Assembly (NCBI RefSeq): GCF_009905375.1
Contig: NW_027419901.1
Coordinates: 120,904-184,903 of the forward strand
Length of the DNA stretch: 64,000 bases
Direction of reading: 5' to 3'
Source: Apium graveolens
Taxonomy: Eukaryota; Streptophyta; Magnoliopsida; Apiales; Apiaceae
The notes beneath the pieces were generated by a model. The model worked only from the letters and a program-made list of their open reading frames with translations, was not told the origin of the DNA and searched no databases. Within the stretch, counting starts at the first letter, position 1, and the number at the start of each line of letters is the position of its first letter. The translations under genes and the position numbers were made by a program. Positions 4,804-26,795 of this stretch are shown piece by piece.

Positions 4804-7011
4804 TATATATCTATTAACATCCATTCGGTTGTTGAATTTTTTTTTTAAAAAGTCAAAAAACCAATTTTAAAATAAACACTAGTTAGTTGTACTAGTCAAA
4901 CTAAATCATGACTGTTAAAATGGAAAACCAAATAAAATTATTTTAATATAAAATTTTGGTTATATGACTAAGATATATTTCTATTGACAACCATATGGTT
5001 GGATCGTTGAAAAATATTTTTCAAAAAATCGAAACACCAATTCTGGAATAAACACTAGTTAGATGTACTAGTCAAACTAAAGTTTGACTGTTAAAATGGC
5101 AAACCAAATAAAATTATTTTGATATGAAACTGTTGGTTATATCACTAAGATATATATCTATTAACATCCATATGTTTGGATAGTTGAAAAATATTTTAAA
5201 AAAAATCGAAACACTAATTCTGGAATAAACACTAGTTTGGTGTAATAGTCAAACTAAAGTTTGACTGTTAAAATGGAAAACCAAATAAAATTATTTTGAT
5301 ATGAAATTTTGGTTATATCACTAAGATATATATATCTATCGACATCCATATGGTTGAATTGTTGATAATTTTTTTTAAAAAAATCAAAACACCAATTCTG
5401 GAATAAACACTAGTTAGTTGTACTACTCAAACTTATATCTATCGAAATCCATATGGTTGGATCATTGAAAATTATTTTTTAAAAAAATCGAAACACCAAT
5501 TCTGGAATAAACACTAGTTAGGTGTACTAGTCAAACTAAAGTTTGACTGTTAAAATAACAAAACCAAATAAAATTATTTTGATATGAAATTTTGGTTATA
5601 TCACTAAGATATATATATATATATACATACATATGGTTGAATAGTTGAAAAATATTTTTTAAAAAAATCTAAACACCAATTTTGGAATAAACACTAGTTA
5701 TTTGTACTAGTCAACTGAAGTTTGACTGTTAAAATGATAAACCAAATAAAATTATTTTGATGTGAAATTCCGGTTATTTCAATAATGTACATATATATAT
5801 ATATATAGTGACATCCATATGGTTGGATCGTTGAAAAATATTTTAAAAAAAATCGAAACACCAATTCTAGAATAAACACTAGTTAGGTGTACTAGTCAAA
5901 CTAAAGTTTGACTGTTAAAATGGCAAACCAAATAAAATTATTTTGATATGAAATTTTGGTTATATCACTAAGATATATATATCTATCGACATCCAGATGG
6001 TTGAATTGTTGATAAATATTTTTAAAAAAATCGAAACACCAATTCTGGAATAAACACTAGTTAGTTGTATGAGTGAAACTTATATCTATCGAAATCCATA
6101 TGGTTGGATCATTGAAAAATATTTTTAAAAAAAATCGAAACACCAATTCTGGAATAAACACTAGTTAGGTGTACTAGTCAAACTGAAGTTTGACTGTTAA
6201 AATAGCAAACCAAATAAAATTATTTTGATATGAAATTTTGGTTATATCACTAAGATATATATATATATACATATGGTTGGATAGTTGAAAAATATTTTTA
6301 AAAAAAATCTAAACACCAATTTTGGAATAAACACTAGTTAGTTGTACTAGTCAACTGAAGTTTGACTGTTTCATGATAAACCAAATAAAATTATTTTGAT
6401 GTGAAATTCCGGTTATATCACTAATATACATATATATATATATATATATATAGTGACATCCATATGATTGGATTGTTGAAAAATATTTAAAAAAAATTGA
6501 AACACCAATTCTAGAATAAACACTAGTTAGTTGTACTAGTCAAACTGAAGTTTGACTATTAAAATGGCAAAACAAATAAAATTATTTTGATATGAAATTT
6601 TGGTTATAGCACTAAGTTATATAACTATCGACATCCATACGGTTGGACCTTTGAAAAATATTTTTTTAAAAAATCGAAATACCAATTCTGGAATAAACAC
6701 TAGTTAGGTGTATTAGTCAAACTGAAGTTTGACTGTTAGAATAGCAAACCAAATAAAATTATTTTGTTATGAAATTTTGGTTATATCACTAAGATATATA
6801 TATATATATATATATCTACATACATATGGTTTTTCGTTGAAAAATATTTTTTTTAAAAAAATCGAAACACCAATTCTGGAATAAACACTAGTTAGTTGTA
6901 TTAGTCGAACTGAAGTTTGACTGTTAAAATGGCAAACCAAATAAAATTATTTTAATATAAAATTTTGGTTATAGCACTAAGATATATATCTATCGAAATC
7001 CATACGGTTGG

Positions 7012-7834
7012 ATCATTGAAAAATGTTTTTTTTTTAAAAATCGAAACAACAATTCTGGAATAAACACTAGTTAGGTGTATTAGTCAAACTGAAGTTTGAC
7101 TATTAAAATAGCAAACCAAATAAAATTATTTTTATATGAAATTTTGGTTATATCACTAAGATATATAAATATATATATATATATCTACATACATATGGTT
7201 GTACTAGTCAAACTGAAGTTTGACCGTTAAAATGGAAAACCAAATAAAATTATTTTGATGTGAAATTTTGGTTATATCGGTAATATATACTCCCTCCGTC
7301 CCGGCCAATTGTTTTCATTTGGTTCGGCCACGGAGGTTAATAAATCTATATAAAATAGTGAAAAAGAGAAAGAAAAGTGAGTGAAGTAGTGGGACCCATT
7401 GATTTTTAATATATAAAAAGGAGATAGTGGAGTAAAAGTTGTGTGGAAAGGGAAAAAAATGTGAAAATGGTGGGACCATTTACTATTTTTGATAAATTTT
7501 GAAATGTTAAGAATTGGATGGGACATCCCAAAAAGAAAAGTGTAAAGAAATGGTTGTGACAGAGGAAGTATATATCTATTGACATCCATTCGGTTATATT
7601 GTTCAAAAATATTTTTTAAACAATCGAAAAACCAATTCTGAAATAAATACTAGTTAGTTATACTAGTAAAACTGAATCTTGACTGTTAAAATGGAAAACC
7701 AAATAAAATTATTTTGATATGAAATTTTGGTTATATTAGTAAGATATATATCTATTGACAGCCATAAGGTTGGATCGTTGAAAAATATTTTTTAAAAAAT
7801 CGAAACACCAATTCTGGAATAAACACTAGTTAGT
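7012..7834. repeat. Higher-order duplicate of array block ~2561-3360
   Basis: The block shares with ~2561-3360 the same truncated unit (CATATGGTTGTACTAGTCAA), the same MITE and the same variant downstream units (AATAAATACTAGTTAGTTAT). The offset is about 4.47 kb. A second higher-order period of about 645 bp relates ~5235-5880 to ~5880-6525. Confidence 0.75.
7290..7568. mobile_element. Stowaway-type MITE, copy 3
   Basis: A 279-bp copy almost identical to the one at 2816, with the same right-end mutation (GAGGAAG) and the same array context on both sides. This shows it arose by duplication of array sequence rather than by a new insertion. Confidence 0.9.
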
Positions 7835-7854
7835 TGTACTAGTCAAACTGAAGC

Positions 7855-9248: not shown

Positions 9249-9767
9249 ATTGCAGCATGAACGTGCTCTTTCATTTGATAATTGACCTTGTTAATGCAAA
9301 ATATGTGTTATCATTACACACATAGATTAAGAATCGGGCACTAACAATATTTGAGCCAATAAATTACTATTTATGATCATATTTAAAATTCCTAAATATC
9401 TGACCATTACAATTTAACATTTTACTCCTTTCCTTTTAGCCTTTTCTTTGTTTTCTCTTCTCATCAGGCATAGGTGATAGGGGTGAACGCGGATCAGATT
9501 GGTCGGGTTAGAGGATAAAAATGACCCAACCCACTTACTTGGGTTTGTAAAAATTTCAACTGGTCAACATAAAAATATACTTTTGACCCAACCCTATTAT
9601 TTATATATTGGGATGGATCCTGTTTGTTCGGATTGGGTTAAACATAAAAACTAACATTAATATGTGACCAATGAAAATTTTATATACAATTCGAAAAATG
9701 AAATTGCTTTTCACATGTGAGCTTGACTAGAAGACCAGAATAGGAAAAATTGATGATCGAACATAAA
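9249..9767. other. Non-coding sequence with a possible hAT-like remnant
   Basis: TAGGGGTGAACGCGGATC near 9478, followed by repeated GGGTTGGG/CCCAACCC blocks, resembles ends of non-autonomous hAT elements, but no matching inverted end was found. The last ~75 bases are close to 52760-52835, so this was once a dispersed repeat or shared flank. No gene is visible. Confidence 0.3.
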
Positions 9768-9970
9768 TGTCACACACCAAACTACAACACACACACACAC
9801 ACTGAATAAAAGAGAACCATAAATATTACAAACTTATAAGTCCAAAGGATGATAATGATCTAATAGAACCCAATCAAAATAATAAAAATCTCAAGATCTT
9901 TACAAGTTCAGAGTTTGGAACAACCCTTCTAACTAATATCACGATTACATACTGGCGGATTCCGCCTATA

Positions 9971-10054
9971 CTATATATATTCTACCTGCGCCCTCAAATG
10001 GTCTTCACCCTTCCTACCGGTTGACTTACGGGCGGTCTGCTTTGTACGAAGCAT
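9971..10054 (-). CDS. 27-codon ORF mimicking the histone H3 N-terminal tail
   Basis: On the minus strand ATG at 10054 opens MLRTKQTARKSTGRKG and ends at TAG (9973-9971). Eleven consecutive residues, RTKQTARKSTG, equal residues 2-12 of mature histone H3, including Lys4, Lys9 and Ser10. Beyond GRKG the similarity stops. The ORF lies in the sense direction of its LTR, 287 bases before the LTR end, nine bases after an apparent splice acceptor (CTGTTCTACAG at 10064-10074). The gypsy LTR fragment at 2053 has a related ORF in the same relative place. A chance 11-residue match is very unlikely; a captured histone fragment or a selected mimic are the alternatives. Whether it is translated is unknown. 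Confidence 0.6.
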   Translation of the reverse strand: MLRTKQTARKSTGRKGEDHLRAQVEYI

Positions 10055-12869
10055 GATTGCTAGCTGTAGAACAGGGTTAAACACAAGGAAATGAGCTACA
10101 ATGCTCACAAGTACTAATCATTCTATTATGCAAAATATTATCTCAAAATCACGAGTTCATAAATCAAGGGGTTATGGATACTTGTAAGAATGACAATAAG
10201 AATCATGAAGTTATAATATGAAGATTTGGTAAAATTATAGCAATTGAAACATGGTATATGGAATCATGATATCGGGCAACATGTTATAGTATAAAGGGGT
10301 AGAATCATAATAATCGAAATATGGCATATGGTATCATGGCATCAGGCAATCATGTTATAAATATCAAATCATCAAAATCATTTTAGGATGCTACGAATTA
10401 TAGCCGGTGATCAGCCGCGAAGTATTCCCGAACCTCGCTGGGTTCTAAAATATAATGGGATCCCTAGGCTATACGTGAGCCTATCAATAACGTGAAAATG
10501 ACTTGTGTCTGGTTCCAATCCACTAAGATAAGAAAATATTTATTTTATTTTTATTGATTTATAACATGGATGCTGGGGAAAGATTGGGTATCAACATAAT
10601 TGAATTAGATTCAAGGGAAGAACATTTGAAGGTAAAGTACAAATTAAGTTAAGAGTGATTAACGAAAGTATTTGAAATAATTATGGGCATGGGGTTGTTA
10701 TAACTAAGAATTCATTTAAAATGTATATATATGCAACACTTATAAGAATAAAGAGGTAAGTAACTTGCCAACAATTATACGCATAAGAAAGTAGTAACTT
10801 GCCTTTCAAAGTTCTAAGATTATTCGATCTTGATAGCACGAGTCTTCCCCTTCGCTTCGGTAGCTACACATTATATTAACCTCATTACTATTCACTCTTC
10901 ACCGACTTATACGCCTATAAGCTTCTAGACTAACCTTTACCCATATTATAACTATGATTATACAAACTTATGATTACACATAACTTAATCGCATACAATT
11001 AAAGTAATCCACATAGTCACATAATCACGTAATGGCATGGCATATGATACTTAGCTATTATCACCTAAATCTCTATGCACGTAAGCAAATAACACATAAG
11101 AACTATCACTAATGCTTCACTCTATCTATTCTGACCTTAACTTAAACCAAAAGATGCTATGCAACAGTCAGACCCTTCACTTTTAAGTCCCCAAACACAA
11201 CATACACCACTAAAGTTGCCTAATGCCACTCGAGGGGTGCTCCTCGGGTGCCTTGGTTAGAATGGGGTGTTTCCACCTTGGGCCTTCACTCTAAATCATT
11301 TCCTAGAGGGTGCTAAGACTCTAAAATAACTTCTAAAGTTGGTAAGACTGAAGGGCCTTACTCCTAAAGGTTTACAAAGATCAATACTCTCACCGAAGTT
11401 CCCTGCCAGCATCAATTTGCACTACCTGTGCTCTTTTGCAAAAATATCAACTTCGACATAGGGCCTTCGAACAAAACCACTTCCCGTGGATTCCTAAGAC
11501 CTAACCTAACTCTCAGATTTGGTTTCAGGCCAAGGCCTCACCTAGGCCTCTCTAGGATTTGCCCCAAAATTGACTCTGCCCAACCCCCACTAGAATTCAA
11601 ACTGTTCTGTTTTTACTTACATAAAACCCACTTTTCTCATTCAATTTTTAATTCTAAAGGCTTTTTAAGCTTCCTAGGGATGCATTATACTTATTTAAGC
11701 CAAGGCCCCGTGAAGTACTACCCTATGGCATGGTTATAATCGACCAAAGTTCAAGTTTACCCAGCCCTGCCCTGTTCTGAGTTGCTATCGGTTATGGGGG
11801 TGTGCACCTACCTAAATTCCAGTTTCTTACGGAACCAAGGCTACTGGACTCAAGTATAACTCAAGTCCTAACTCCAGTAAACTTAGGCCTAGCAAGGCCT
11901 CACAAAAACTCACCTAAAACTGCCTATACTTTTGGTGAAAAAGTCTGCTACTTAGTACCTAGTGTACCTCCTTCCACCTTAACTCCCATTCCAACACCAA
12001 AACCAACATGCAAGCACACAAATATATCCTAAAGTATACACAACCCTATTAACTATTATTTTATGGAAAAATAAGAGCATAACTTAGCCATAATAGTTAT
12101 TTACCGAGGCAAAAACAAAGAGCAGAGCAGAGCAGATTTTACATGTGAACTTCTAAGCAAATTTTCGAACCAAAAACATATGTTAATAACTTGATGGCTA
12201 CAAGATTTAATTTTAACTTATTAAGGCACATAGCATATTATCATTTTAGAGCAAAAAAATCATGGCATGCATTGCACAAAAACTCAAATTTAAGTCACAT
12301 AGCACATTTGTTCGAAATATCACCTATACTACGACATGCAGGCATTAACTTCAGCTTTTAGTGTAAAAATCATGGCATACAAGGATAGAAAATTTGTAAA
12401 AATACATTTTAAAAGAACAGAGGTTCTTTAAAAGTCACATGTAAATCTTCTTTCTTCTTGGAAAACAAATTAAACTAAATACAAACCATAAAATTCATTC
12501 CGCTCCTTAGGAGTCATTGCCGAATGCTTGAGGCCAAGATTATGGCTTGAAAGTAGAAGCAAAACACTTCATCAAGACCATCTCTTGCTTAAGTTTTATA
12601 AGCCACAATTAGTTCAACTCTAGATTCACAAGAATCAAAGTTAAACACTTGGCCTTAACTATATGCAACTAATAAACTAATCTTGAATGATGATATAGAA
12701 CCAAGTGAAATTGTCCTTTGCTTAGAGGAGTTGAAAGATGCAAGAAGGTGAAGAAATGAATAAGAAAAAAATGAGAGGGGAGGAGGGTGTAGGCACGGCC
12801 GAGAGGGAGGGGTAGAGAGAAGCGAGAGTGGAGTGAGGTGTTGGTGAAGAAAATGAAGTGAGTGGAGTG

Positions 12870-12881
12870 TATAAATTTATA
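12870..12881 (-). promoter_or_regulatory. Putative LTR TATA box
   Basis: TATAAATTTATA is palindromic. The minus strand below it is a CT-rich leader (CACTCACTTCATTTTCTTCACC and so on), typical of a plant 5' UTR and consistent with minus-strand LTR transcription. Confidence 0.5.
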
Positions 12882-13346
12882 TGGATTTTAAACTTAATAT
12901 TTTGTCCTTCATCCACCAGTAGCCAACTTTTGCATGCAAGGTTTTGATTGGTCTTTTGCTTGATCAAATGGAGTTAGTGGGGAGTGAAAGGATAGTCCTA
13001 TCCTTGACCTCTATTTGAGTGGAAATTGCATGTAAGGGTACACTTGTAATTTATAACTGTTAGGAATATATGTGCATTAGTTTGATGATATGTTTAACAA
13101 AACACTTAAGTAGAAATCTAGTGTTTGTAGCCTCAACGGATAAGACCACTTTGGCTATCCGTTGATGGTGTAGCTTTACTTAGAAATAAGTCTAGTGTTG
13201 TAGCATATTTCAGTCTCTGAATTTGAGATATAATTCTTAAATGTTGAGGAAAATTATAAGTCATGTTGACTACTAAAGGATATGCAGATAGGAAGGCCAA
13301 TTATAAATATTTCATGCCTTGTAATTTTGTATAAATGAAATGGTGT

Positions 13347-13514
13347 CAACGGATAACTTAAAGACCTTCAACGGATGAGAAACAAAGCTTCAACGGATGT
13401 CTCTAAAGCTTCAACGGATAACATCCTTCAACGGATGAGTGCATCAACGGATAGAGCTTCAACTGCTAACACATCAACGGATAAAGCCATCAACGGATGA
13501 AGGCTTCAACGGAT
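13347..13514 (+). promoter_or_regulatory. Cluster of nine CAACGGAT motifs upstream of the LTR TATA box
   Basis: Same-orientation copies start at 13347, 13369, 13391, 13412, 13429, 13445, 13475, 13491 and 13507, about 16-30 bp apart and 130-300 bp upstream of the TATA box. CAACGG fits the MYB consensus YAACKG, so an enhancer bound by MYB-type factors is a reasonable inference. Confidence 0.6.
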
Positions 13515-13641
13515 GTTCTGTTAAATAGCAGTTGACAAGTGGTAGTTGTACCTACAAACAGAGGCACATGGGTTGACAGAGACAACTGAGATGTGGTAGC
13601 CTATTTCAGGAACATCAGAAAAAGCAGCCGTTCTACTCTAG

Positions 13642-13647
13642 TATAAA
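13642..13647 (+). promoter_or_regulatory. LTR TATA box
   Basis: CTAGTATAAAGAGGC contains TATAAA; transcription would start about 30 bp downstream, marking the U3/R border. The same sequence is at 25782-25787 in the 3' LTR. Confidence 0.7.
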
Positions 13648-14116
13648 GAGGCAATAGTCAACAATGCACTGGAGTAAAATGGAGAAGAAACAAGTGGAGA
13701 ACTTATTTTATTATTGTACATTTATCTTTGTCTTCACTTGTAAAACTTGGTGTTATATAAACCAAGTAGCAGCTAGTAATTAGAAAAGAATTTTTCCAGA
13801 GCTGTTTAGAAAAATCTTGAGAAAAATTATCTAGTTTGTACTAGGATGCAGCTGTGATCAACTTCTTGAATCACAGATTTTCTGAAATACCATCTCTGGT
13901 GGAACAACAAATCCAACAGAAAAGTTTTTAAGGTCTGTTGTGTTCTGTACTTTTGTGCTTGAATATATATCTGTCTGTATTAGCTTAAAGCAATTCACAC
14001 ACTTGTTTATCTTAAACACACAGCCTTTGAAACTGCTCAAAACTTGAAAAAGTTTTGAGATTTACATTCAACCCCCCTTCTGTAAATCTCATTATTAGTT
14101 CACTAGGAATAACAAT

Positions 14117-14128
14117 TGGTATCAGAGC
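14117..14128 (+). promoter_or_regulatory. Primer binding site (initiator tRNA-Met)
   Basis: TGGTATCAGAGC lies two bases after the 5' LTR. It is the standard plant copia primer site, complementary to the 3' end of initiator methionine tRNA. Confidence 0.95.
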
Positions 14129-14175
14129 AGGCTCTTGACACACAAAGAGTTTAAAGTTCTTGGAAACTAACAAAG

Positions 14176-16590
14176 ATGAGTAAGAAGGATATTGGAGTAA
14201 AAATCCCAGTTCTTGACAAAGACAGTTATCATCATTGGAAGGTGAAAATGCACCTTCATCTACTCTCCCAAGATGAAGGTTATGTAAACTGCATTGAAAA
14301 TGGTCCTCACATTCCCCACAAAGTAGCCACAGTTGCTACAGCCACAATTGTTGTTGGTCAATCCATTCCAAAACCTAGAGCAGAATGGACAATGGAAGAC
14401 ACAGAAGAAGTCCACAAGGATAAGAAGGCTATGAACATTTTGTTTAATGGTCTTGACAAGGATATGTTTGATAATGTGATAAATTGCACAACTGCCAAAG
14501 AGGTTTGGGACACAGTTCAGCTACTGTGTGAAGGTACAGAACAAGTAAAAGAAAACAAAATGCAGCTTCTCATTCAACAGTATGAGTATTTTCATTTTGA
14601 AGAAAATGAATCTTTAAATGACACATTCAATAGATTCCAAAAGCTGTTGAATGAACTGAAGCTGTATGGTAGAGTGTACCAGGTGAAGGATTCAAATCTT
14701 AAATTTTTAAGATCGTTGCCAAAGGAATGGAAACCCATGACTGTCTCCTTGAGAAACTCTCAAGATTATAAGGACTTCACTCTTGAAAGATTATATGGAA
14801 TCTTGAAGACTTATGAACTAGAGCTGGAACAGGATGAGGTATTGGAGAAGGGAAGAAAGAAAGGAGGTTCAGTTGCCTTGGTAGCTGAAAATGAGAAAGA
14901 ATGCAGACAAGAAACTGTGAGATCAACATTAAACTCCAAAGATGGCACAAGCAAATCAGAATCAAGCAAGGGTAAGGAGCAAGTTGCTGAGAATGAAGAC
15001 AACTCCAGCCAAGATGACTCTGATGGTATTGATGAGCATCTTGCATTTCTGTCCAGAAGATTTGCAAAGATGAAATTTAAGAAAAACACTAGAGCCACTA
15101 AACCTCATAAGAACATGGTGGACAAATCCAAGTTCAAGTGTTTCAATTGTGGTATAAGTGGACACTTTGCAAGTGAGTGCAGAAAGCCAACTTCTGAAAA
15201 GAAGAAATTTGACCAAGTAGATTACAAAAAGAAATATTTTGATCTGCTCAAGCAAAAGGAGAAGGCTTTCATTACTCAAGAAAAAGACTGGGCAGGTGAT
15301 GGAGAAGAAGAGGATGAAGATGTAGAATATGTCAACTTGGCTCTCATGGCTGATTCTGAGGAAAATGAAGTTAGTTCATCAAGCAACCAGGTAATCACTA
15401 CTGATTTAACACAGCTTACTAAAAAAGAGTGCAATGATGCTTTTAATGACATGTCTACTGAATTGTATCACTTGCGTGTGTCTCTTAAATCTCTTGCTAA
15501 AGAAAATAGTAGGATTAAAGAGAACAATCTATTTTTAAGTAATAGAAATGCTGTGTTAGAAGATAAGTTGATTGACCTAGAGAAAACTAAGCTACATTGT
15601 ATATCTGTTGAAAATGAACTAGCTGAATCTGTAAAGAAAGTAGAAATACTTTCTAATCAATTAGAGAGAGAGCAAGAGGTGATTAAAGCCTGGAGGACAT
15701 CTAGGGATGTTAGTGCTCAAATTATCAAGGTACAAGGAATTGAATCATTTTGTGAGGCTGCCTGGGATAAAAACAAAAAGAAAATGGAATTAATTGATGG
15801 GTTGTCAACGGATGTGGAATCAACGGATGATGAAAATTATCCGTTGAAGGAAGAAAAGGAGCATCCGTTGAAGGTTCCTCAATTAAAACAGGCAGATGTT
15901 TCTAAAAGTGAAAATCTAAAGAAACTCAACAAAAAGTTTGGTTCAACTTCCAAGAACTTTGTCAAAGAAGAAGCAAGCACATCCAAAGATTTCAGTAAGG
16001 TGAATATAGGACACATGACCTTAGAACAGTTAAAGAATAGGCTCAAAGTGGTTGAGGATAAAAAGGAAACTAAAAGGAAATCTAATAGAAATGGGAAGGT
16101 AGGGGTTAACAAACATAACAATTACACACCTGATAAGTATGCTCCTAGAAAAAGCTGTGTGCATTGTAATAGTGTTAATCATCTATCTGCTAATTGTAAA
16201 TCTATTAAGAAAACTCCCATACCTGTACCCTCTTCCATGCCTAATATGTCTGCATCACCTCTGCATGCTATGCCTGTTATGTCTCAACAGATTCCTTATG
16301 CACATTTTGCAAACATGCCATATTTTAACAATCCTTATCTTGCTGCATTCAGTATGCCTGAAATGCCATACAATATGCCTATGTGGAATAACATGTTTGC
16401 ACAATCCATGCCTTATCAAATTCCAAATGTGCTAAATGATTCTGTGACTAACCCTACACCTCAACCAACTACATCTAAGATCAAGGTTGACTCAAAGTTA
16501 CCTAAGTCTAAAGATGCAGGAGGAATGAAGTCTAGGAGAAAGGCTAACATGAATGGACCCAAGGAAACTTGGGTACCAAAATCAACTTGA
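14176..16590 (+). CDS. gag: Gag polyprotein of the copia element
   Basis: This 804-residue protein would form the virus-like particle. Residues ~20-215 match the copia gag/UBN2 type domain (YHHWKVKMHLHL near the start, later EVWDTVQLLCEG and FNRFQKLLNELK). A CCHC zinc knuckle starts at Cys322 (CFNCGISGHFASEC), and a second cysteine motif at Cys661 (CVHCNSVNHLSANC). Between them a Lys/Glu-rich coiled-coil stretch spans about 400-560. Around residues 544-566 the DNA contains four CAACGGAT motifs read as STD or PLK. A Met/Pro-rich segment precedes the C-terminus. The ATG follows the primer site by 47 bases and is the first good start. It ends in TGA, and pol is in a different frame. Confidence 0.95.
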   Translation: MSKKDIGVKIPVLDKDSYHHWKVKMHLHLLSQDEGYVNCIENGPHIPHKVATVATATIVVGQSIPKPRAEWTMEDTEEVHKDKKAMNILFNGLDKDMFDNVINCTTAKEVWDTVQLLCEGTEQVKENKMQLLIQQYEYFHFEENESLNDTFNRFQKLLNELKLYGRVYQVKDSNLKFLRSLPKEWKPMTVSLRNSQDYKDFTLERLYGILKTYELELEQDEVLEKGRKKGGSVALVAENEKECRQETVRSTLNSKDGTSKSESSKGKEQVAENEDNSSQDDSDGIDEHLAFLSRRFAKMKFKKNTRATKPHKNMVDKSKFKCFNCGISGHFASECRKPTSEKKKFDQVDYKKKYFDLLKQKEKAFITQEKDWAGDGEEEDEDVEYVNLALMADSEENEVSSSSNQVITTDLTQLTKKECNDAFNDMSTELYHLRVSLKSLAKENSRIKENNLFLSNRNAVLEDKLIDLEKTKLHCISVENELAESVKKVEILSNQLEREQEVIKAWRTSRDVSAQIIKVQGIESFCEAAWDKNKKKMELIDGLSTDVESTDDENYPLKEEKEHPLKVPQLKQADVSKSENLKKLNKKFGSTSKNFVKEEASTSKDFSKVNIGHMTLEQLKNRLKVVEDKKETKRKSNRNGKVGVNKHNNYTPDKYAPRKSCVHCNSVNHLSANCKSIKKTPIPVPSSMPNMSASPLHAMPVMSQQIPYAHFANMPYFNNPYLAAFSMPEMPYNMPMWNNMFAQSMPYQIPNVLNDSVTNPTPQPTTSKIKVDSKLPKSKDAGGMKSRRKANMNGPKETWVPKST

Positions 16591-16594
16591 TTGA

Positions 16595-19500
16595 TTTTAT
16601 GGTGTGCAGGGAAACAGAAGAAATCTATGGTACTTGGACAGTGGCTGTTCAAGACACATGACAGGAGATTTCTCCCTGCTCACAAAGTTTAAGGAGAAAG
16701 CTGGCCCTAGCATAACCTTTGGAGATGACAGCAAAGGGTTTACTATGGGATATGGCTTGATTTCAACAAGGAATGTCATCATTGATGAAGCTCCATTAGT
16801 TGATGGTCTCAAGCACAACTTACTGAGCATCAGTCAACTATGTGATAGAAGGAATACAATTTCCTTCAATTCTGAAGTCTGTGTTGTCACCAGTAAGAAA
16901 GACAACAAAGTGGTTCTAACTGAAGTTAGAAAAGGAAATGTGTACTTAGCTGACTTCAACTCTACTGATGCAGAATCTATTACTTGTCTCTTCAGCAAAG
17001 CAAGTCCAGTTGAAAGTTGGCTATGGCACAAGAAGCTATCCCACTTGAATTTCAAGACAATGAATGATCTAGTCAAAAAGGACTTAGTTAGAGGAATTCC
17101 TCTAGTTGAATTCTCAAGGGATGGTTTGTGTGATGCTTGTCAGAAAGGCAAACAAAGGAAAGCATCATTCAAAAAGAAGCTTGAAACAACAATTGATGAA
17201 CCATTACAACTGCTACATATGGATTTGTTTGGACCAGTCAATGTATTGTCAATTGCAAGAAAAAGATATTGCTTAGTGATTGTAGATGATTTCTCAAAGT
17301 TTTCATGGGTCTATTTTCTTGGATCAAAGGATGAAGCAAGTGAAATCATTATCAATCACATCAGGCAAGTCAATAATCATCCTGACTTGAAGGTTAGGAA
17401 TATCAGGAGTGACAATGGAACTGAGTTCAAGAATTTAACAATGAAGCTATTCTGTGAAGAAATTGGAATCATGCATGAGTTCTCAGCTCCAAGAACACCT
17501 CAGCAAAATGGGGTAGTTGAAAGAAAGAACAGATCTTTAATTGAGGCTGCTAGAACAATGCTTGAAGAATTAAAGTTACCAACATATTTCTGGGCTGAAG
17601 CTGTTAATTGTGCCTGCTACACTCAGAATATTTCTTTGATCAATCAAGCTAAAAGCATGACTCCTTATCAGTTGTTCAAAAAAAGAAAACCAACTCTAAA
17701 CTTTCTTCATGTCTTTGGATGTAAATGCTTTATACTGAGAAATCAATCTGACCATAAAGGGAAGTTTGATGCAAAGGCTGATGAAGGGATATTTGTTGGT
17801 TACTCAGCTGGAAAATCTTATAGGGTCTACAATCTAAGAACCAACATTGTTATGGAATCTGTGCATGTTGTGTTTGATGATAAAAAGATTGATGGACTAA
17901 CAGATGAGGGACACCATGAGAGACTCAAATTTGACAATATTGAGATATATTGTGATGATAGTGAAGAGGAGACTGATGGAGATGACACTTCAAAAGGGAT
18001 TCAAAACATGCCCTTGGATAATGCACAAAATTCTGCATCCGTTGATAGAGGCAATGCAGTATCCGTTGAAAGACATAGTGCATCATCCGTTGAAGTACAA
18101 AATGAAGCATCCGTTGATCATAGTTCATCAACGGATAATCGATTTACATCATTAGTTGATAGAACTCCAAGTTCCCTGCAAAGGACCAACAACTCAGGGG
18201 GAGTTTCAACTAATCAACACTCTGTCTCACATCATGACAATACTGAGGCCACCTCATCTAGAGTATATCTTCCACCTCAAAGGAAATGGACCAAGAATCA
18301 TCCCTTTGAACTGATCATTGGTGATGCATTATCTAAAGTGCAAACAAGAAAAGCTACTCAAGATGAATGTCTGTATAGTAGTTTTCTATCTCAGGAGGAA
18401 CCTAAGAAAGTGGAAGAAGCTTTATTGGATCCAGATTGGATATTAGCTATGCAGGAAGAGCTGAACCAATTTGAGAGAAACAAAGTTTGGAAGCTGGTAC
18501 CCAAACCAAAGAACAAGAGTCCTATTGACACAAAATGGGTATTCAGAAACAAGATGGATGAAAATGGCATTGTCATAAGGAATAAAGCCAGATTGGTTGC
18601 TAAAGGCTATTCTCAACAAGAGGGAATAGATTTTGATGAGACATATGCTCCGATTGCAAGACTTGAAGCCATCAGAATTTTTCTAGCCTATGCAGCCCAT
18701 GCCAATTTCAAAGTCTATCAAATGGATGTCAAGAGTGCATTTCTAAATGGGAAATTGGAGGAAGAAGTTTATGTAAGTCAACCTCCAGGGTTTGAAGATT
18801 CAAATTTTCCAGACTATGTGTATTATCTATTGAAAGCACTCTATGGACTGAAGCAAGCACCTAGAGCCTGGTATGAAACCTTATCAAAATTCCTTTTGGA
18901 GAATCACTTCACTAGAGGTACTGTTGATAAAACTCTCTTCTTTAGGAATGTTAATGGCTCTAGTATACTTGTTCAAATTTATGTAGATGACATAATATTT
19001 GGATCTACAGATGATAAGCTTTGTAAAAAGTTTGCTAATCTAATGCAAAGTAATTATGAAATGAGCCTGATGGGAGAACTAACCTATTTTCTTGGTTTAC
19101 AAGTTAAACAAGTTAGTGATGCAATTTTCATTAGTCAAACTAAATATATTTATGATCTTTTAAAGAAGTTTGACTTAATAGAATGTTCATCTACAAAAAC
19201 TCCCATGGCCACTGCCACCAAACTTGAATTAAATAAGACTGAAAGGTCTGTGGACATTACAAGTTATAGAGGCATGGTTGGTTCACTTTTATATCTAACT
19301 GCCAGTAGACCAGATATAATGTTTTCTACATGTCTCTGTGCTAGATTTCAAGCTGACCCTAAAGAATCTCACTTAGTAGCTATTAAAAGAATTTTCAGAT
19401 ATCTCAAGGGGACTCCAAATCTAGGAATTTGGTACCCTAAAGAGTCTGGTTTTGATCTAATTGGCTACTCAGATGCAGACTATGCAGGTTGCAAAATAGA

Positions 19501-19924
19501 CAGGAAAAGTACAACAGGCTCCTGCCAATTCCTGGGAAACAAGCTTGTATCATGGTTTAGCAAAAAGCAAAATTCAGTCTCTACTTCTACAGCTGAGGCT
19601 GAATACATTGCTGCTGGAAGTTGCTGCTCTCAAGTGTTATGGATGAGGAATCAACTCCTTGATTATGGACTACATGTTGATAGAATTCCTATTTTTTATG
19701 ACAACACAAGTGCCATAGCCATAACAGAGAATCCTGTGCAGCACTCAAGGACCAAGCACATTGATATCAAGTACCACTTCATTAGGGAACATGTGATGAA
19801 AGGTACAATGGAACTTCATTTTGTTCCAAGTGAACAACAAATTGCAGACATATTTACCAAGCCACTTGATGAATCAACATTCACAAGATTGGTAAGTGAG
19901 CTAGGTATGCTTAATTACTCTTAA
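16595..19924 (+). CDS. pol: Pol polyprotein: protease, integrase, reverse transcriptase, RNase H
   Basis: It is open from 16595 with no ATG before the protease; counting from GTG at 16604 gives 1106 residues. The aspartic protease motif is [14 protein letters not shown] (Asp12). Gag-pre-integrase is [11 protein letters not shown] with CDACQKG (~138-180). The integrase D,D,E is at HMDLFGP (~205), RSDNGTEF (~268) and QNGVVERKN (~304). Reverse transcriptase has [30 protein letters not shown] and YVDD (793-796). RNase H has SDADYAG (~956), STAEAEY and [15 protein letters not shown]. Catalytic residues appear intact. Five CAACGGAT motifs lie in the linker between integrase and RT (18037-18136). 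The frame differs from gag and opens only after the gag stop, so expression needs splicing, recoding or reinitiation; TTATGGTGTGCAG at its start looks like a splice acceptor. Confidence 0.95.
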
Positions 19925-20011
19925 AATTCATGTCCTTATTGTAATTTGATTTGAAGCCTGAAATGTATTAGCTGCAAGAACAAATTTGATTTTTAACATA
20001 GAGTATTCCAT

Positions 20012-20163
20012 CAACGGATATTCCCTATCCGTTGAAAGTCAAAATTGTTCTGTCAACGGATGTTCATTATCCGTTGAAAGTCATATACATTTCTGGAATT
20101 TTTATCCATCAACGGATAAAACTGAAGTGCTCTTCAACGGATGACAGTTTACCTTATCCGTTG
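20012..20163 (+). promoter_or_regulatory. Second cluster of CAACGGAT motifs, upstream of the third ORF
   Basis: Seven perfect copies start at 20012, 20054, 20110 and 20135 (plus) and 20027, 20069, 20156 (minus), with degenerate CCGTTGAT copies to ~20226. They lie 200-350 bp upstream of the TATA-like box at 20364, mirroring the LTR arrangement. The stretch 19925-20480 between pol and the third ORF has no other coding content. Confidence 0.6.
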
Positions 20164-20363
20164 AAATATCACATCAGTCGATTCAAGTGTTTCACAGCCG
20201 TTGATTCTATTGTCTTAACCGTTGATACTCATACATACAGCTGTATGTATTTGTTTTAAAGGTAGTTTTCAGAATACTTACAGTTTATTCTTAAACGGCT
20301 GAAATTCACTTACACATATTTATTGTTTAATCTCTTATTTATGTTTTTTTTTATTTGAGAAAG

Positions 20364-20370
20364 TATATAA
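20364..20370 (+). promoter_or_regulatory. TATA box of an apparent internal promoter
   Basis: GAAAGTATATAAGCCC contains TATATAA. It is followed by a ~110-base CT-rich leader and an ATG in strong plant context (CAACAATGGCACC) at 20481, which looks like an ordinary plant promoter and 5' UTR. Confidence 0.6.
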
Positions 20371-20480
20371 GCCCTTCTGATTTTTCATTTTTACTTTACG
20401 CTTTCTTAAAATTTCAAAGCTTTTACCATTTTCTCTCTGCAAAACCTTCAAGTTATTCTCTGCAATTTCTACTCACAACA

Positions 20481-23400
20481 ATGGCACCAGTAGTAAAGAT
20501 TATGTCTCAATATGGGTTTATCTATGAGAAGAACAATTTCATAGCTTTGGTAGAAAAGAATGAAGCCCACTCAGATTATCACAAAATGATGGACTTCATC
20601 AAAAACTGTAAACTTAGCTATGCAATGCTGGAAGCCCCAACGATTTACTGTGAAGTAGTTGAGGAGATTTGGACATCTGCTGAGTTCAACTCCATAGATA
20701 TGACTATCTCCTTCACTCTCAAAGGTAAAAATCACTGTGTTAACTGTGATGAATTACTAGCATGTTTTAAATTACCTGAGAACAATGCCATGATACCACA
20801 CACTGATAATGATGTATCCAGCATGTTAGATTCCATAGGTTATTCTCTTAACTCTGCTAGTTTAGGGAGTATTAGAAGAAAAGGCCTTAGGAAAGAATGG
20901 AGTTTTCTTGGGGATGCCTTTATCAAGGTTTTCTCTGGGAAAATTAGCAATTTTGATGCCATAACTTCATCTCTTGTTAATATGCTCTATATGCTTGTTT
21001 CTGATAGGTATTTTAATTTTAGCAACTATATTATGCTAGAATTGGGTACTAGATTAGGTAACAAAGCTAATAGACCTAATAACATCTATTATGCTAGATT
21101 CTTTATGTTATTGGTTAACCATGTTGCTGAAGGTTTGGTCATTACGAATGAGAATAATAAACTCAAGTGCTGGGCACAAGAGAAAACAGTTCTTGCAGAT
21201 TTATTGAGAATGGATCTCAACAGCAGTGTGCCATTGGTATATTTACCAATCATGAATGCACCACAGGTAGGTGAGGTAATTGCTTCTACAACTACCACTT
21301 CTTCCAACCCCTCTATTTCTTTATCTTCTAGTGTGGCCATGGAATCTGTGACAATGCCCCAACAGATTCCTACCAAGGTCACCAAAACTAAACTTTCAAA
21401 ATCAAAGACAAAGAAAACCACCTCTGTTGTTTCTCAAAAGACAACAGTTGTAACACCTACCATTAACCCTGAGGGGAGTGAACAGGGTGTGAGTGGTGAG
21501 GGGAGGGGTGAACATCAAAGAAACCCCCAGGATAAGGAAGGAGAGAAAAGTGCATCCCAAGCTAGCCAAGCCACAGTTTCTCAAAAAGCTGTGGTGGTTG
21601 AAAAGGTTACTAGCATATCCCTAGCTGCATCCTCCCAAAAGGATGTAACTATTGAAAATAGTTCCCAACCAGGAACACACAAACGAGGGAGGGACACTAA
21701 AGCCAAACACTCACCAACAAAAGCCTTTATTAGAAGAAAGAGAGCTAGAACCCAATCTTCTACACAGGGTGCACACACTGCACAGATACATCCATCTGTA
21801 TCTATGCGTTCTCAAACTCAGTTTGATGTGGCTCCAACAAATGTGGAGTCACAGCCCCATTCTCTCACAATTAACACACATCAATCATCACACACTTCTT
21901 CACCATCTCTAGATGTGGATATGTTATTCCCATCAATTCCTGATTCTCCCTCTTTACAACTCAGGGATGAGCCCCACTCAAATACAGGTGATCATCATCT
22001 TTTAGATGATTTGTTGGATCACCCCCAAATTCTTTCAGATGTAATTGAAGGATCTGTATCACCAAAACTCATATCAATCTACACAGATTCAACAGTTATA
22101 TCACTTTCAATTTCTACTTCTTTTCCTTCTTCAACGGATATCACTCATCCGTTGACAAGTGGTTGTTCTTCAACGGATAAGCTTAACAGCAGTTATCCGT
22201 TGATACCATCAGTTTCACCTTCAATGGCTATTCCTCATCCGTTGATAGTCTCTACACACACAACTGAAACAATTCCAAGTGTAGAAGACTTGATTACTGT
22301 ACAATCACTTCTAGGACTGAGGGAAGGGAGTGACAATTTGAGTGAGAGGCTGGGTTGCTCCCAGGCAAAAGGAGAGATTGAGAGCTCAAATATGCATTCT
22401 ATTTCTTCCAGCATGGCAAAAGTAAGTGAGAGGAGTACCACCTTAGTAGGTGAAGGTGAGGGAGTGAGTTGTGTGAGCCAGGGGGAGCCCCTGATGCAAG
22501 AACATAGAGAAAATGAGAGAAAGGTAGGTGCAACAGATATAAGGATGGATCCAGCCATTGCTAGTGAGTCAATGATTGTGAATGATGCTGAAAAGGAAAG
22601 ACAATTTCAGCAACATTACAAAGCTGTAATTGATAACATTTCCTTGGATGCTGACACTTTTACTCATCCTGTTTCAGCCTATCAAGTATTGGCTGCACAG
22701 GGCAATGTGGAGGCAGAAAAGACACTACATCTAGTACATACAACAGCATCTCTTCAAAGGGACAAAACTGCTATTAACAAGATGCCTTCAACAGCTGGTA
22801 AGTCATTTGAAGAATTTGGAGTAAATTCTGATGATGATGACTTTGTTTCTTCTGATGGAAGCATGAACTTAGGGGGAGATAAAGGCCCTAGTTCTATTCC
22901 AAATCTACCTGAATGGGCTTTCACAAAGGAGTCTACAACAGGGCAATTAAATGTCTCCTTAGTCAAACAAATCAGTACTATCAGACAGGCCATTCAGAAA
23001 ACTTCTCATGCTGGTACAAAGGCTATCCTTACAGCTCACTTGGACTCACTGCATCTCATGAAGTTGCAGCAAGTAAAACAGAATCTGAGTGTGGATGAAC
23101 TCAGAAAGGATATTGCTGACTTGAAATCCTACAATTCTGAAAAATTGGATTCAGTCATGCCCTTTGGTACAATTCAGGACATTTTGTTGAGATTGAAAAA
23201 GGAATCAAATACTGAAAAGTGGCTGGCCAAATTGGAAGACAGAGTTCAATTTATTGAAGATTCTGTGGCCACCATTCTTCACAACCAACAATCTCAAACA
23301 AATCTACTTATGCAGCTGGCAAAAGCACAGGGCTTGACCCCTCTCCTTGATGATAACAAAAAAGGGGAGAGTAAAAGGGAAGGGGAAGGAGAGCCATCTA

Positions 23401-25010
23401 CAAAAATCCAAATATCTAAAGTGCTAGTTCCTGCCATCACTACTTCTCCAATCATTCAAATCAAAGGAAAGCCTGATGGAATTGATTTAATCCAGCTAGC
23501 AACAGCTGAAATTCAAGTGAAAGAGCAAATGAGGAGAATTGATGAAAGGATGCAACAATTGTTTGGCTCAACACAAGATAAATCAATATCTGTGAAATAT
23601 AGCACAAAGGTTGAACCAATCAACATGGAGCACAAGCCAGAAAGGAGAAATAAGGTTGGAGAGACTTCTTTCAAGAATCTAAAACCTATGGTTCTCAAGC
23701 CCAACACCAGATCCAGCAAGGACTCCACAAAGAACCCTCTTGACTTTGCTCAGATGAAAGAAGTGGACTTTCCTCTTCCAAAGCCTGATGAAGAAAAAGT
23801 TTTGGGTACAAGCATCATAAAACACAAGGAGACCATGGATGAGGCAGTAAGGAGAAATATGGCTATTATCTTTAGAGAGGGAAAGAGCATATGTGTGATG
23901 CAAGGACATCCCAAATTCTCAATAGCCAAGAGGGAAGAAACCAAAAGGTTAAAGAAAGAAGCTGAGAAACTCAAGGCTGACAAAAGAGCACAAGCAAAGC
24001 TTGAACAAAAGCTAAAGTCAAGTCTAGTTGAAAATGAGAAAGGAATTGAAGTCAGGGGTGAAGACAAGATTGCAAACTTAGATGAGGTTTTTGGGAGTAT
24101 ATTTGGTGAAAGCATGGAGGAAAAAGAGAAATGGCAGAAGGGAAACAGAAGAAAGGCCAAGGCACATAGAAGGAGTGAAGGCAACACTGAAGAAACTAAA
24201 TCTCTACCTTCCATACCTGAACCCTTTGTTGCTGATCCCACTATAAACATTCATGATGAACCAATCATCCCAAAAGAGGAACCTATTGATTGGGACACCA
24301 TCAATTTGCCTACCTTTTTAACCACTCTTCCACTACCAAAGAAACAGAAAAGAAAATCCAAATCTACACCTCCCCTAAACTCTAAGAAATTCACTCAAAA
24401 ACACAAACCTAACCCTAAGCCACCCATTTCTAAAGATGATTATGTTCACATCTGTGACATAAAAGAAATTTCAGACATTGAACTCTATCTGGATGAGCTG
24501 GAGGATGTAAGGGGAATTGCTGCTTACAGACAGCTACCAGAGAGATTGGTGTTCAGATACAAAGGAGCTGGGGAAAGAACATGGCCTCTCTACAGGATTC
24601 TGAATGAAGGCTACTCTACCTTGATCAGAGTCTTTTCAGCCATACAAAAGGATTCTGGCTTTACCAGGACTGCCAAGACTGAAATTCTCAACAAGATTGC
24701 CAACATAAGGAAAACTTGGAGGGAGCCCAATGCTTTGCCCAGAACCTTACTCATTCAAGAAAGGGGAACTACAATTCACAAATCACCTCATTGGTTGATG
24801 GAATTCAGAGATGATAAAGGAGTCAGAAGATTTTTCAGACTTGAAGACCAACTCAAGATTGCCAGCAATGAAACTCTCAAAGAAATGCAATCTAAGTTGG
24901 ATATCAGTGATGAAGATGAAGCTGAATTCTTCAGACAACTCCAACTCCAAATTGAGGAAAATGACAAAGGGCTAGGAAAGAAAACCAGGGATCAAAGAAG
25001 AAAAAGATGA
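20481..25010 (+). CDS. Third ORF of the copia element (additional ORF, function unknown)
   Basis: From ATG 20481 it encodes 1509 residues; the frame is open 42 codons further up, but that part overlaps the TATA box and leader. The N-terminal ~230 residues form a globular domain (DYHKMMDFIKNCKLSYAM, EIWTSAEFNS, LRKEWSFLGDAF, SDRYFNFSNYIMLEL). To my knowledge this resembles a domain in extra ORFs of asterid copia elements. The middle is Ser/Thr/Pro-rich and low complexity, with five CAACGGAT motifs (22132-22244), then helical, Lys/Glu-rich segments likely to form coiled coils. A C-terminal domain has RLVFRYKGAGERTWPLYRIL and IRKTWREP. No signal peptide or transmembrane segment is visible, so it is not obviously envelope-like. 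It lies downstream of pol with its own apparent promoter. Confidence 0.85.
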   Translation: MAPVVKIMSQYGFIYEKNNFIALVEKNEAHSDYHKMMDFIKNCKLSYAMLEAPTIYCEVVEEIWTSAEFNSIDMTISFTLKGKNHCVNCDELLACFKLPENNAMIPHTDNDVSSMLDSIGYSLNSASLGSIRRKGLRKEWSFLGDAFIKVFSGKISNFDAITSSLVNMLYMLVSDRYFNFSNYIMLELGTRLGNKANRPNNIYYARFFMLLVNHVAEGLVITNENNKLKCWAQEKTVLADLLRMDLNSSVPLVYLPIMNAPQVGEVIASTTTTSSNPSISLSSSVAMESVTMPQQIPTKVTKTKLSKSKTKKTTSVVSQKTTVVTPTINPEGSEQGVSGEGRGEHQRNPQDKEGEKSASQASQATVSQKAVVVEKVTSISLAASSQKDVTIENSSQPGTHKRGRDTKAKHSPTKAFIRRKRARTQSSTQGAHTAQIHPSVSMRSQTQFDVAPTNVESQPHSLTINTHQSSHTSSPSLDVDMLFPSIPDSPSLQLRDEPHSNTGDHHLLDDLLDHPQILSDVIEGSVSPKLISIYTDSTVISLSISTSFPSSTDITHPLTSGCSSTDKLNSSYPLIPSVSPSMAIPHPLIVSTHTTETIPSVEDLITVQSLLGLREGSDNLSERLGCSQAKGEIESSNMHSISSSMAKVSERSTTLVGEGEGVSCVSQGEPLMQEHRENERKVGATDIRMDPAIASESMIVNDAEKERQFQQHYKAVIDNISLDADTFTHPVSAYQVLAAQGNVEAEKTLHLVHTTASLQRDKTAINKMPSTAGKSFEEFGVNSDDDDFVSSDGSMNLGGDKGPSSIPNLPEWAFTKESTTGQLNVSLVKQISTIRQAIQKTSHAGTKAILTAHLDSLHLMKLQQVKQNLSVDELRKDIADLKSYNSEKLDSVMPFGTIQDILLRLKKESNTEKWLAKLEDRVQFIEDSVATILHNQQSQTNLLMQLAKAQGLTPLLDDNKKGESKREGEGEPSTKIQISKVLVPAITTSPIIQIKGKPDGIDLIQLATAEIQVKEQMRRIDERMQQLFGSTQDKSISVKYSTKVEPINMEHKPERRNKVGETSFKNLKPMVLKPNTRSSKDSTKNPLDFAQMKEVDFPLPKPDEEKVLGTSIIKHKETMDEAVRRNMAIIFREGKSICVMQGHPKFSIAKREETKRLKKEAEKLKADKRAQAKLEQKLKSSLVENEKGIEVRGEDKIANLDEVFGSIFGESMEEKEKWQKGNRRKAKAHRRSEGNTEETKSLPSIPEPFVADPTINIHDEPIIPKEEPIDWDTINLPTFLTTLPLPKKQKRKSKSTPPLNSKKFTQKHKPNPKPPISKDDYVHICDIKEISDIELYLDELEDVRGIAAYRQLPERLVFRYKGAGERTWPLYRILNEGYSTLIRVFSAIQKDSGFTRTAKTEILNKIANIRKTWREPNALPRTLLIQERGTTIHKSPHWLMEFRDDKGVRRFFRLEDQLKIASNETLKEMQSKLDISDEDEAEFFRQLQLQIEENDKGLGKKTRDQRRKR

Positions 25011-25185
25011 TTTGCTCATGCTAGAGGAGCACCCTTGAAAACACTGTAAATCTTCAATTACCTTCTAGTACATACACTTTTGCAGCACTTTTAAATTTCT
25101 ACTTAGTTTCAGTTCATATATTTGTTAAGTGTTTTGTTATCATCAAGTTAACCTTGAATTTATGTCTACAATTCTTATAGACATA

Positions 25186-25197
25186 AATAGGGGAGAT
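25186..25197 (+). promoter_or_regulatory. Polypurine tract
   Basis: AATAGGGGAGAT abuts the start of the 3' LTR, the expected place for plus-strand primer formation. Confidence 0.85.
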
Positions 25198-26254
25198 TGT
25201 TAGGAATATATGTGCATTAGTTTGATGATATGTTTAACAAAACACTTAAGTAGAAATCTAGTGTTTGTAGCCTCAACGGATAAGACCACTTTGGCTATCC
25301 GTTGATGGTGTAGCTTTACTTAAAAATAAGTCTAGTGTTGTAGCACATTTCAGTCTCTGAATTTGAGATATAATTCTTAAATGTTGAGGAAAATTATAAG
25401 TCATGTTGACTACTAAAGGATATGCAGATAGGAAGGCCAATTGTAAATATTTCATGCCTTGTAATTTTGTATAAATGAAATAGTGTCAACGGATAACTTA
25501 AAGACCTTCAACGGATGAGAAACAAAGCTTCAACGGATGTCTCTAAAGCTTCAACGGATAACATCCTTCAATGGATGAGTGCATCAACGGATAGAGCTTC
25601 AACTGCTAACACATCAACGGATAAAGCCATCAACGGATGAAGGCTTCAACGGATGTTCTGTTAAATAGCAGTTGACAAGTGGTAGTTGTACCTACAAACA
25701 GAGGCACATGGGTTGACAGAGACAACTGAGATGTGGTAGCCTATTTTAGGAACATCAGAAAAAACAGCCGTTCTACTCTAGTATAAAGAGGCAATAGTCA
25801 ACAATGCACTGGAGTAAAATGGAGAAGAAACAAGTGGAGAACTTATTTTATTATTGTACTTTTATCTTTGTCTTCACTTGTAAAACTTGGTGTTATATAA
25901 ACCAAGTAGCAGCTAGTAATTAGAAAAGAATTTTTCCAGAGCTGTTTAGAAAAATCTTGAGAAAAATTATCTAGTTTGTACTAGGATGCAGCTGTGATCA
26001 ACTTCTTGAATCACAGATTTTCTGAAATACCATCTCTGGTGGAACAACAAATCCACCAGAAAAGTTTTTAAGGTCTGTTGTGTTCTGTACTTTTGTGCTT
26101 GAATATATATCTGTCTGTATTAGCTTAAAGCAATTCACACACTTGTTTATCTTAAACACACAGCCTTTGAAACTGCTCAAAACTTGAAAAAGTTTTGAGA
26201 TTTACATTCAACCCCCCTTCTGTAAATCTCATTGTTAGTTCACTAGGAATAACA
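25198..26254 (+). repeat. 3' LTR of the 13.2-kb copia element
   Basis: 1057 bp, the same length as the 5' LTR and differing at about 10 sites, all substitutions. One substitution destroys the CAACGGAT copy near 25569 (CAATGGAT), leaving ten. Confidence 0.95.
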
Positions 26255-26259
26255 ATAAC

Positions 26260-26795
26260 TATTAAAAGTATAATTTAAAAGAATGATTTTTAGTAATTAA
26301 AATACAAATCCATAAATCACCAAATAAATACCATAAATACTATGAGATTTTAGAAATTTAATAAAATTGTTTTAAGAAAATATAAAAAAAAAATTCGAAC
26401 AAAAAAATTTATATTAAAATAATTTTTCACATATTATTATACTAACAAACAAATCATAAAAAATATACTTAACACATTATAAATTACACAAATAATTGCA
26501 ACTAACTTGATTATATTCAACAATACTAAACTAAAAATTATCGTCTGATCGCAACTATTCAAATATTACTAAATCGCGAGAAATCCCTATTATTTACTAA
26601 TCGAGTAGCGATAATATTACTCGCGTACAAAATTTACACGCTTAAAATATATCAGCAACACTCGCAATGCCATACGACAAAATTATACACAATATATAAC
26701 GAATTGGCATAATCGGCCTTATAACACATAATATTTAGGAATATATATATGTATCGCATTTATAAAAATAACTCTAATATTTACCGGTCGTCACA
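26260..26795 (-). mobile_element. Ty3/gypsy long LTR, remaining (5') part
   Basis: AT-rich continuation of the LTR at 9768-13057, read on the minus strand from TGTGACGACCGG at 26795. The distal boundary rests on the TG...CA ends and a 4-of-5 target duplication (ATAAA/ATCAA), so it is tentative. Confidence 0.5.

Follow-up and report, generated by a model that had tools for sequence, protein, structure and literature searches.

Plants silence retrotransposons through H3K9 methylation, and to our knowledge few element-encoded countermeasures to this silencing are known in plants. Histone mimics are known from viruses; in influenza NS1, for example, an H3-like sequence is present in the parasite's protein as a short C-terminal motif.

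In the grass retrotransposons Retrosat2, RIRE3 and RIRE8, gag-pol is preceded by an ORF0 which, in the available part of its description, was not found outside the grasses and evolves faster than pol (PMC3485330). In fungi, a hAT DNA transposon captured an H3 gene and, according to the excerpted text, its P. fijiensis copies except the original one are inactivated by RIP (PMC6710886). The chromodomains of Tekay elements show the motifs (K/R)-X-(L/T)-R-X-(k/r) and EEXTWEXE, and the accessible portion of the same paper states that group II chromodomains of plants lack the cage residues and that an interacting factor was not found (PMC3350952). The word 'histone' occurs 0 times in the excerpt of a review on gene capture by plant transposons (PMC13317346), and part 1 of 3 of a review on aORFs names no histone-like ORF (PMC7264820). 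In the open-licence literature we found no retrotransposon bearing an H3 tail or another histone mimic, an absence of little weight, and no paper on an ORF0 in Tekay elements. Elements with an ORF0 are already known; judged from sequence, a spliced ORF0 that bears an H3 tail would be new, and we describe such a candidate in celery.

Results

We looked at a 27-codon ORF on the minus strand (9971..10054) of a 64,000-nucleotide stretch of celery DNA, which was analysed as a whole and is called the window below. Read without splicing, this ORF gives MLRTKQTARKSTGRKGEDHLRAQVEYI and stops at 9971-9973. The preliminary description had reported a match to the H3 tail here, and RTKQTARKSTG is indeed identical to H3 residues 2-12. 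With the window ORF as the query, the alignments to PDB H3 chains began at the first residue and the best E was 0.0067, the E-values being weak because the query is short. When the window was compared with H3 in six frames, the longest common word had 11 residues, against 4 (1/40), 5 (31/40) or 6 (8/40) in 40 Markov-resampled windows, and a 20-mer from the H3 block occurred once in the window with 0 occurrences expected (100 shuffles). These figures suggest that the identity to the H3 tail exceeds chance. A protein search with the 48-aa stop-to-stop ORF gave no match, and a search of viral contigs gave 0 matches. Seven H3 loci in bacterial MAG contigs shared 27-32/39 bases with the window copy; they look eukaryote-like and are probably contamination.

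The ORF had been placed in the sense orientation of an LTR, 9 bases after a splice-acceptor-like word and 287 bases before the LTR end, and this setting was borne out in all its parts. The acceptor-like CTGTTCTACAG (AG at 10064-10065) and the 9-base leader CTAGCAATC precede the ATG (10055..10074, minus strand). The 3' part of the LTR (9768..13057, minus strand) ends in ...GTGTGACA at 9768, and the 5' part (26255..26795, minus strand) starts with TGTGACGACC at 26795, beyond a copia element inserted inside the LTR on the plus strand (13058..26254; gag PF14223, RVT_2, integrase), which lies outside the finding. This insertion has the target-site duplication ATAAC (13053-13057 and 26255-26259), and the 99.06% identity between its two LTRs marks it as young. 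The 5-base flanks of the H3-bearing LTR are TTGAT and TTTAT, which may at best be a mutated duplication. No primer-binding site was seen after the LTR in the window, and the second exon presented below (exon 2) is absent from the 64-kb window. Since both are missing, this is a solo LTR; it lacks exon 2 and is thus unable to make the protein of ~150 aa considered below.

Other features of the window were observed alongside. Downstream of the copia pol, a 1559-aa open frame (20331-25010, plus strand) had no Pfam match at E 0.001; it is possibly env-like or an extra ORF of a SIRE-type element. The 3' flank of the LTR (9684-9767) is repeated at 52752-52834 with 88% identity. The LTR together with the same flank recurs over 1787 bases in L032 (C5:308.07 Mb, 98.8%) and L033 (C2855:106 kb, 97.5%), which we read as larger locus duplications. 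Positions 1-2053 and 43986-46011 form a ~2-kb same-orientation repeat (97.4%), and satellite-like arrays lie at 2517-7853 and 34041-35557, with periods of ~178 and 172-174 bases.

A genome search with the 84-base ORF returned 444 first-look places, and the best 40, which were scored, were 94-100% identical. We examined 28 of these best 40 matches, namely 8 loci from the search (window copy included) and 20 that were fetched; their ranking followed similarity to the ORF, which makes the counts favourable to it. The coding part of exon 1, with the H3-tail mimic MLRTKQTARKSTGRKGEDHLRAQ (9986..10054, minus strand), was present at the same place in 28/28 family copies, window copy included. The ATG was kept in all 28, and along the block R2 was kept in 27, T3 in 28, K4 in 27, Q5 in 26, T6 in 27, A7 in 24, R8 in 26, K9 in 28, T11 in 28 and G12 in 23. 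S10 was kept in 25/28, the others having T in two cases and a stop in one. Exact RTKQTARKS was found in 14/28 copies and exact RTKQTARKSTG in 10/28. The residue after Met was V in 22, L in 3, I in 2 and F in 1, and position 14 was Q in 20/28 and K in 8/28; the window, with Leu after Met and K14, shows the minority state at both. Removal of the Met by methionine aminopeptidase is allowed by V but not by L in this position, so most copies would yield VRTKQTARKS, which differs by one residue from ARTKQTARKS of H3. The AG before exon 1 was found in 26 of the 28 copies and was missing in L051 and L058; a figure of 28/28 from a looser acceptor word was discarded, as that word accepted both lost forms too. 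On the other side of exon 1, a donor-like GTAGAA (9980..9985, minus strand) comes right after GCGCAG; the donor search word CAG|GT, which was unanchored, was found in 41/48 loci, 3 of them without exon 1. In L034-L038 the ORF was 96% identical against 81-90% for the rest of the LTR; these copies were ranked by the ORF itself, so this is no evidence of conservation.

Exon 1 has 23 codons and ends in GCGCAG|GTAGAA. Twelve of the 28 copies then have a leader with a GGTTTAGAGTC-type word, and in several leaders TTGGTATCAGAGC or a near form lies directly 5' of it; this TTGGTATCAGAGC-type word resembles a tRNA-Met primer-binding site. Beyond the primer-binding region there is a T/A-rich stretch, followed by the acceptor TTGRCAG|CAACGTGC. 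In the 5'-LTR copies, the exon 1 donor and the exon 2 acceptor join in phase 0, and in one such copy, L037, exon 2 is open over 128 codons, from QRAHSSSS... to ...EEEEAQDDF and a stop. The exon-2 acceptor was placed in seven copies (L037, L043, L046, L049, L050, L053 and L055): exon 2 is open in L037 and in L049 (to the end of its piece), reaches ~112 codons before a stop in L043, and has earlier stops in L046, L050, L053 and L055. After the stop of exon 2, L037 has an acceptor-like TTTCAG and a separate gag ATG, with a stop 7 codons on; in L082, reading from the corresponding gag start continues and gag matches follow. This arrangement suggests a separate sense ORF upstream of gag-pol. The possibility that exon 2 is the N-terminus of Gag was rejected, since the frame of exon 2 closes with a stop codon and gag possesses a separate ATG past a further acceptor-like word.

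A better reading of the window ORF is the first exon of a putative spliced gene. The 27-codon reading is probably not a real product, because the donor-like GCGCAG|GTAGAA comes directly after codon 23. A free peptide of 27 aa, as proposed in the preliminary description, is thus unlikely and was set aside: the donor at codon 23 joins exon 2 in frame, the junction is present in five database proteins (gene models), and the H3 block would better fit the N-terminus of a protein of ~150 aa.

Copies were also collected through exon 2. This exon matched 6886 first-look places in the genome, 150 of which were scored (70-100% identical), many of them containing stops. We took places at about every seventh position down the list, counted by eye and with known ones skipped; this gave 23, from which 3 were left out, and the remaining 20 had been chosen without knowledge of exon 1. 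An H3-like exon was found upstream, behind a similar acceptor-like word, in 17/20 of these places, and was not found upstream of exon 2 in L061, L074 and L075. Both K4 and K9 were present in 17/17 of the copies found in this way and the ATG in 15/17, with losses in L059 and L076. Exact RTKQTARKS was present in only 3/17, and a stop lay inside the H3 block of L072 and L078. The exon-2 acceptor word matched 12/20 loci, with the AG intact in 11.

A second celery family was met among 22 sampled 10-kb stretches. One of its copies, L029, is a solo LTR with the target-site duplication ATGTT and carries MVRFKKTVRKTCNADAYVRAQVE, followed by a stop, at the same place; it keeps 6/11 of the first H3 letters and reads MVRFKKTVRK. 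L067 belongs to the same family (MVRFKQTARKTCDADAYVRAQ), which carries the H3 block with T3F and S10T.

We then searched 5.8 billion proteins with exon 2 (8 matches) and with a four-row exon-2 alignment (20 matches). The named proteins among the 20 from the profile search were all from Heracleum or Apium, two genera that belong to different tribes of Apioideae. Five of the 20, all gene predictions, join an H3-like exon to exon 2. The Heracleum predictions P0003, P0007 and P0010 start with MVRTKQTARKSSNGV...IAQ|Q(R/C)AHSSSS and have H3 residues 2-10 unchanged, and the celery predictions P0011 and P0018 read MV(R/I)FKQTARKTC...RAQ|Q(S/R)AHSSSS. A further celery prediction, P0008, has MVSTKQTARK joined further in, and the H3-like exon was missing from the remaining 14/20 exon-2 matches. 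P0003 is 67% identical to exon 2 over 92% of its length. When the first celery family was compared with Heracleum, MVRTKQTARKS was identical at 11/11 positions and the remainder of exon 1 at 3/12 (Fisher p 3.4e-4 for one pair, aligned by eye). Separately, P0019 was observed to be a divergent relative of exon 2, with 31% identity to P0003 and the same Q|QR..SSSS start, which suggests a wider reach of ORF0.

Concerning conservation, the preliminary description had named loss of the ATG or of the RTKQTARKS block from other copies, or neutral drift of the frame, as results that would speak against a role. A clear loss was not found: the ATG stands in 28/28 of the best ORF matches and 15/17 of the copies reached through exon 2, and the block recurs in the second celery family, with T3F and S10T, and in Heracleum with residues 2-10 unaltered. 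Drift is another matter, since substitutions within the family were near neutral, with 17 departures at first, 12 at second and 18 at third codon positions (12 copies); no selection was visible in these copies and the changes were not concentrated at third positions. Such a pattern is expected because the copies are mostly dead. Gap-free identity within the family was computed on 14 of the 20 exon-2-chosen copies (L061, L074, L075, L067, L076 and L078 omitted) with approximate bounds, and gave 0.892 for the H3 block, 0.863 for the remainder of exon 1, 0.857 for the upstream LTR, 0.851 for U5, 0.886 for the leader and 0.878 for exon 2, so that in these 14 copies the conservation of exon 1 barely exceeds that of its flanks, if at all. 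Between the window copy and L029, with the gap placed by eye, 15/22 aligned codons differ, 4 of them synonymously; two Arg codons differ at two bases (CGT/AGA and AGG/CGA), and both Arg and the frame are kept. With the same gap, the substitutions were placed at random 20,000 times: a peptide score as high as the real one arose in 3 cases and an identity as high in 167, and 14,218 contained a stop. Between families, pN/pS was ~0.5 on 10 codons, which is weak. The case for selection would rest on the cross-genus pattern, and the pattern of mostly dead copies is no proof of selection.

The type of element was determined on open pieces of two elements. Retrotrans_gag, RVP_2 and RVT_1 were above the cut-off, and rve had E 6.5e-7 with 30 bits against a cut-off of 32.6. 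SH3_Tf2-1 was detected in two pieces (E 1.3e-23 and 2e-23), and a Chromo match below the cut-off (E 0.0039) in 1/10 pieces. L080 has the Tekay motifs RTLRNK and EEAMWELE (T to M), and L083 has RILRNK and EESTWELE, with a stop just before. Ty3-type gag, protease, RT and integrase appear to be present and, by its domains and motifs, the element is assigned to the Tekay-like chromodomain retrotransposons.

Finally, we looked at the predicted protein. The model of P0003 (12 sequences) had a mean pLDDT of 68.9, with residues 1-32 below 50, followed by four helices. Exon 2 gave nothing above the cut-off against Pfam, and a histone fold after the tail was not found, since Pfam matches to exon 2 up to E 1 included no histone. 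From the model, the H3-like tail appears exposed and the body behind it helical.

Discussion

We observed the anatomy of the two exons, their recurrence among copies and the conservation of the H3 block across genera. We infer transcription, splicing, translation, binding and purpose of ORF0 as follows. A Tekay-like chromodomain retrotransposon of Apiaceae would have an accessory gene ('ORF0'), with the window ORF as its exon 1. Transcription would start in the 5' LTR; a first splice would use the acceptor ahead of the ATG, and a second would lead from the donor after codon 23, over the LTR end and the primer-binding region, to exon 2, all of these being candidate sites. The second splice would remove the primer-binding region, so its product would be a subgenomic message and not a genome. 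The predicted protein of ~150 aa would start with MVRTKQTARKS..., continue with QRAHSSSS... and a helical body, often end in an acidic C-terminus, and be separate from Gag, whose own ATG lies further on. Its N-terminus would be a disordered, exposed mimic of the H3 tail, with R2 to K9 kept, and could act on host writers or readers of the H3 tail, around K9, either as a handle or as a decoy. Blunting of the element's silencing would be the likeliest use, and steering of complexes to heterochromatin a less likely one. The residue after Met was never A in the families seen, and readers that cage Ala1 should be disfavoured in this situation. With V where H3 has A at position 1, partners centred on K9 would therefore be favoured over readers caging a free Ala.

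We give somewhat better than an even chance to this explanation as a whole, in which ORF0 carries the H3-tail mimic on its helical body and engages host writers or readers of the H3 tail. Against a decoy, nucleosomal H3 would be in large excess over it; against the mimic, group II chromodomains lack the cage residues in the part of the paper at hand (PMC3350952). The more pointed statement, that plant chromodomain retrotransposons of a whole lineage encode a dedicated H3-tail mimic, a spliced ORF0 that shows VRTKQTARKS on a helical scaffold and misleads or captures the H3K9 silencing machinery, is tentative, and we hold it a little less probable than its opposite.

The N-terminus of ORF0 might be only a basic tail for nuclear import or nucleic-acid binding, with its likeness to H3 reflecting origin or convergence. 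The tail of H3 acts as an import signal, and L029 with MVRFKKTVRK retains mainly the basic positions. In Heracleum, and mostly in the first celery family, the non-basic T3, Q5, T6 and A7 are kept as well, which exceeds the need of a simple basic signal, and the H3 likeness ends near S10-T11. We consider this reading unlikely.

It is equally doubtful that the ORF0 tail is methylated at K9 by the host, bound by heterochromatin proteins (chromodomain or SRA-type) or by the element's own integrase, and used to target the pre-integration complex to heterochromatin. The C-terminal Chromo match, below the cut-off at E 0.0039, and the Tekay chromodomain motifs are in line with such targeting; the missing cage residues of group II chromodomains, as given in the excerpt of PMC3350952, are not.

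A chance capture might also have brought an H3 fragment into an ancestral LTR, where it would travel along in the 5' leader and be kept for its RNA (as splice sites or an enhancer) and not for a peptide. Origin from a host gene is plausible from the letters: among 11 stretches at celery H3 gene starts that were compared with copy L036, the closest two (L087 and L089) shared 29/33 bases after the ATG and 8/11 third positions, and capture of the start of a host H3 gene would fit this likeness. Other celery H3 starts went down to 1/11 third positions, which speaks against capture. The near-neutral changes within the family fit a fragment kept without its peptide, and H3 capture by transposons is on record in fungi in the available text of PMC6710886. 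An RNA signal does not account for Arg being kept while its codons differ between the window copy and L029, for the H3 block outlasting the remainder of exon 1 between genera, or for the in-frame junction of exons 1 and 2, and we regard a fragment of this kind as quite improbable. As an observation apart, celery has a large cluster of divergent H3-like exons at C7:180.04-180.48 Mb and on contigs C684, C685, C1422, C2988 and C4164, with dozens of matches to H3 residues ~79-135, mostly 76-84% identical and many in open frames of ~65 aa.

That the ORF, which is short and might be picked out by any reader after striking words, resembles H3 by chance is next to impossible, given an 11-residue word against 4-6 residues in 40 resampled windows and the return of the block in family copies, a second family and a second genus.

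If the preferred reading of ORF0 as an H3-tail mimic is true, a transposon would encode a histone mimic, and one element would bear both a domain of the histone-reader type, on its integrase, and a histone-tail decoy. In a family whose first-look places run into the thousands in one genome, a conserved H3 tail borne by the element's protein would offer a direct handle on the encounter between element and silencing, and peptides, existing RNA-seq and proteomics make this cheap to test. Dicot elements would also gain an ORF0, and an LTR would be seen to contain a coding exon that is spliced across the primer-binding region and that gene and repeat annotation could readily overlook.

Compared with described systems, the celery element would share with the Tekay (Del) chromoviruses the Ty3-type gag, PR, RT, IN and SH3, together with a candidate chromodomain that is divergent, lies at the C-terminus and shows the Tekay motifs, and the accessible part of their description mentions no H3-tailed ORF0 (PMC3350952). 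With the grass ORF0 elements it shares an extra sense ORF between the 5' LTR and gag-pol and LTRs of ~3 kb or more; the two are likened by position and description, not by sequence homology, and in the available text on the grass elements 'histone' and 'intron' each occur 0 times and no LTR-borne exon is described (PMC3485330). The fungal H3 amplification has in common a transposon with H3-derived sequence in many copies but, in the part of the paper at hand, concerns an H3 gene, whereas in celery the tail only is present, in frame with an element-specific protein (PMC6710886). Unlike the motif of NS1, the celery mimic is ~10 residues long, lies at the extreme N-terminus in register with H3, and belongs to a retrotransposon.
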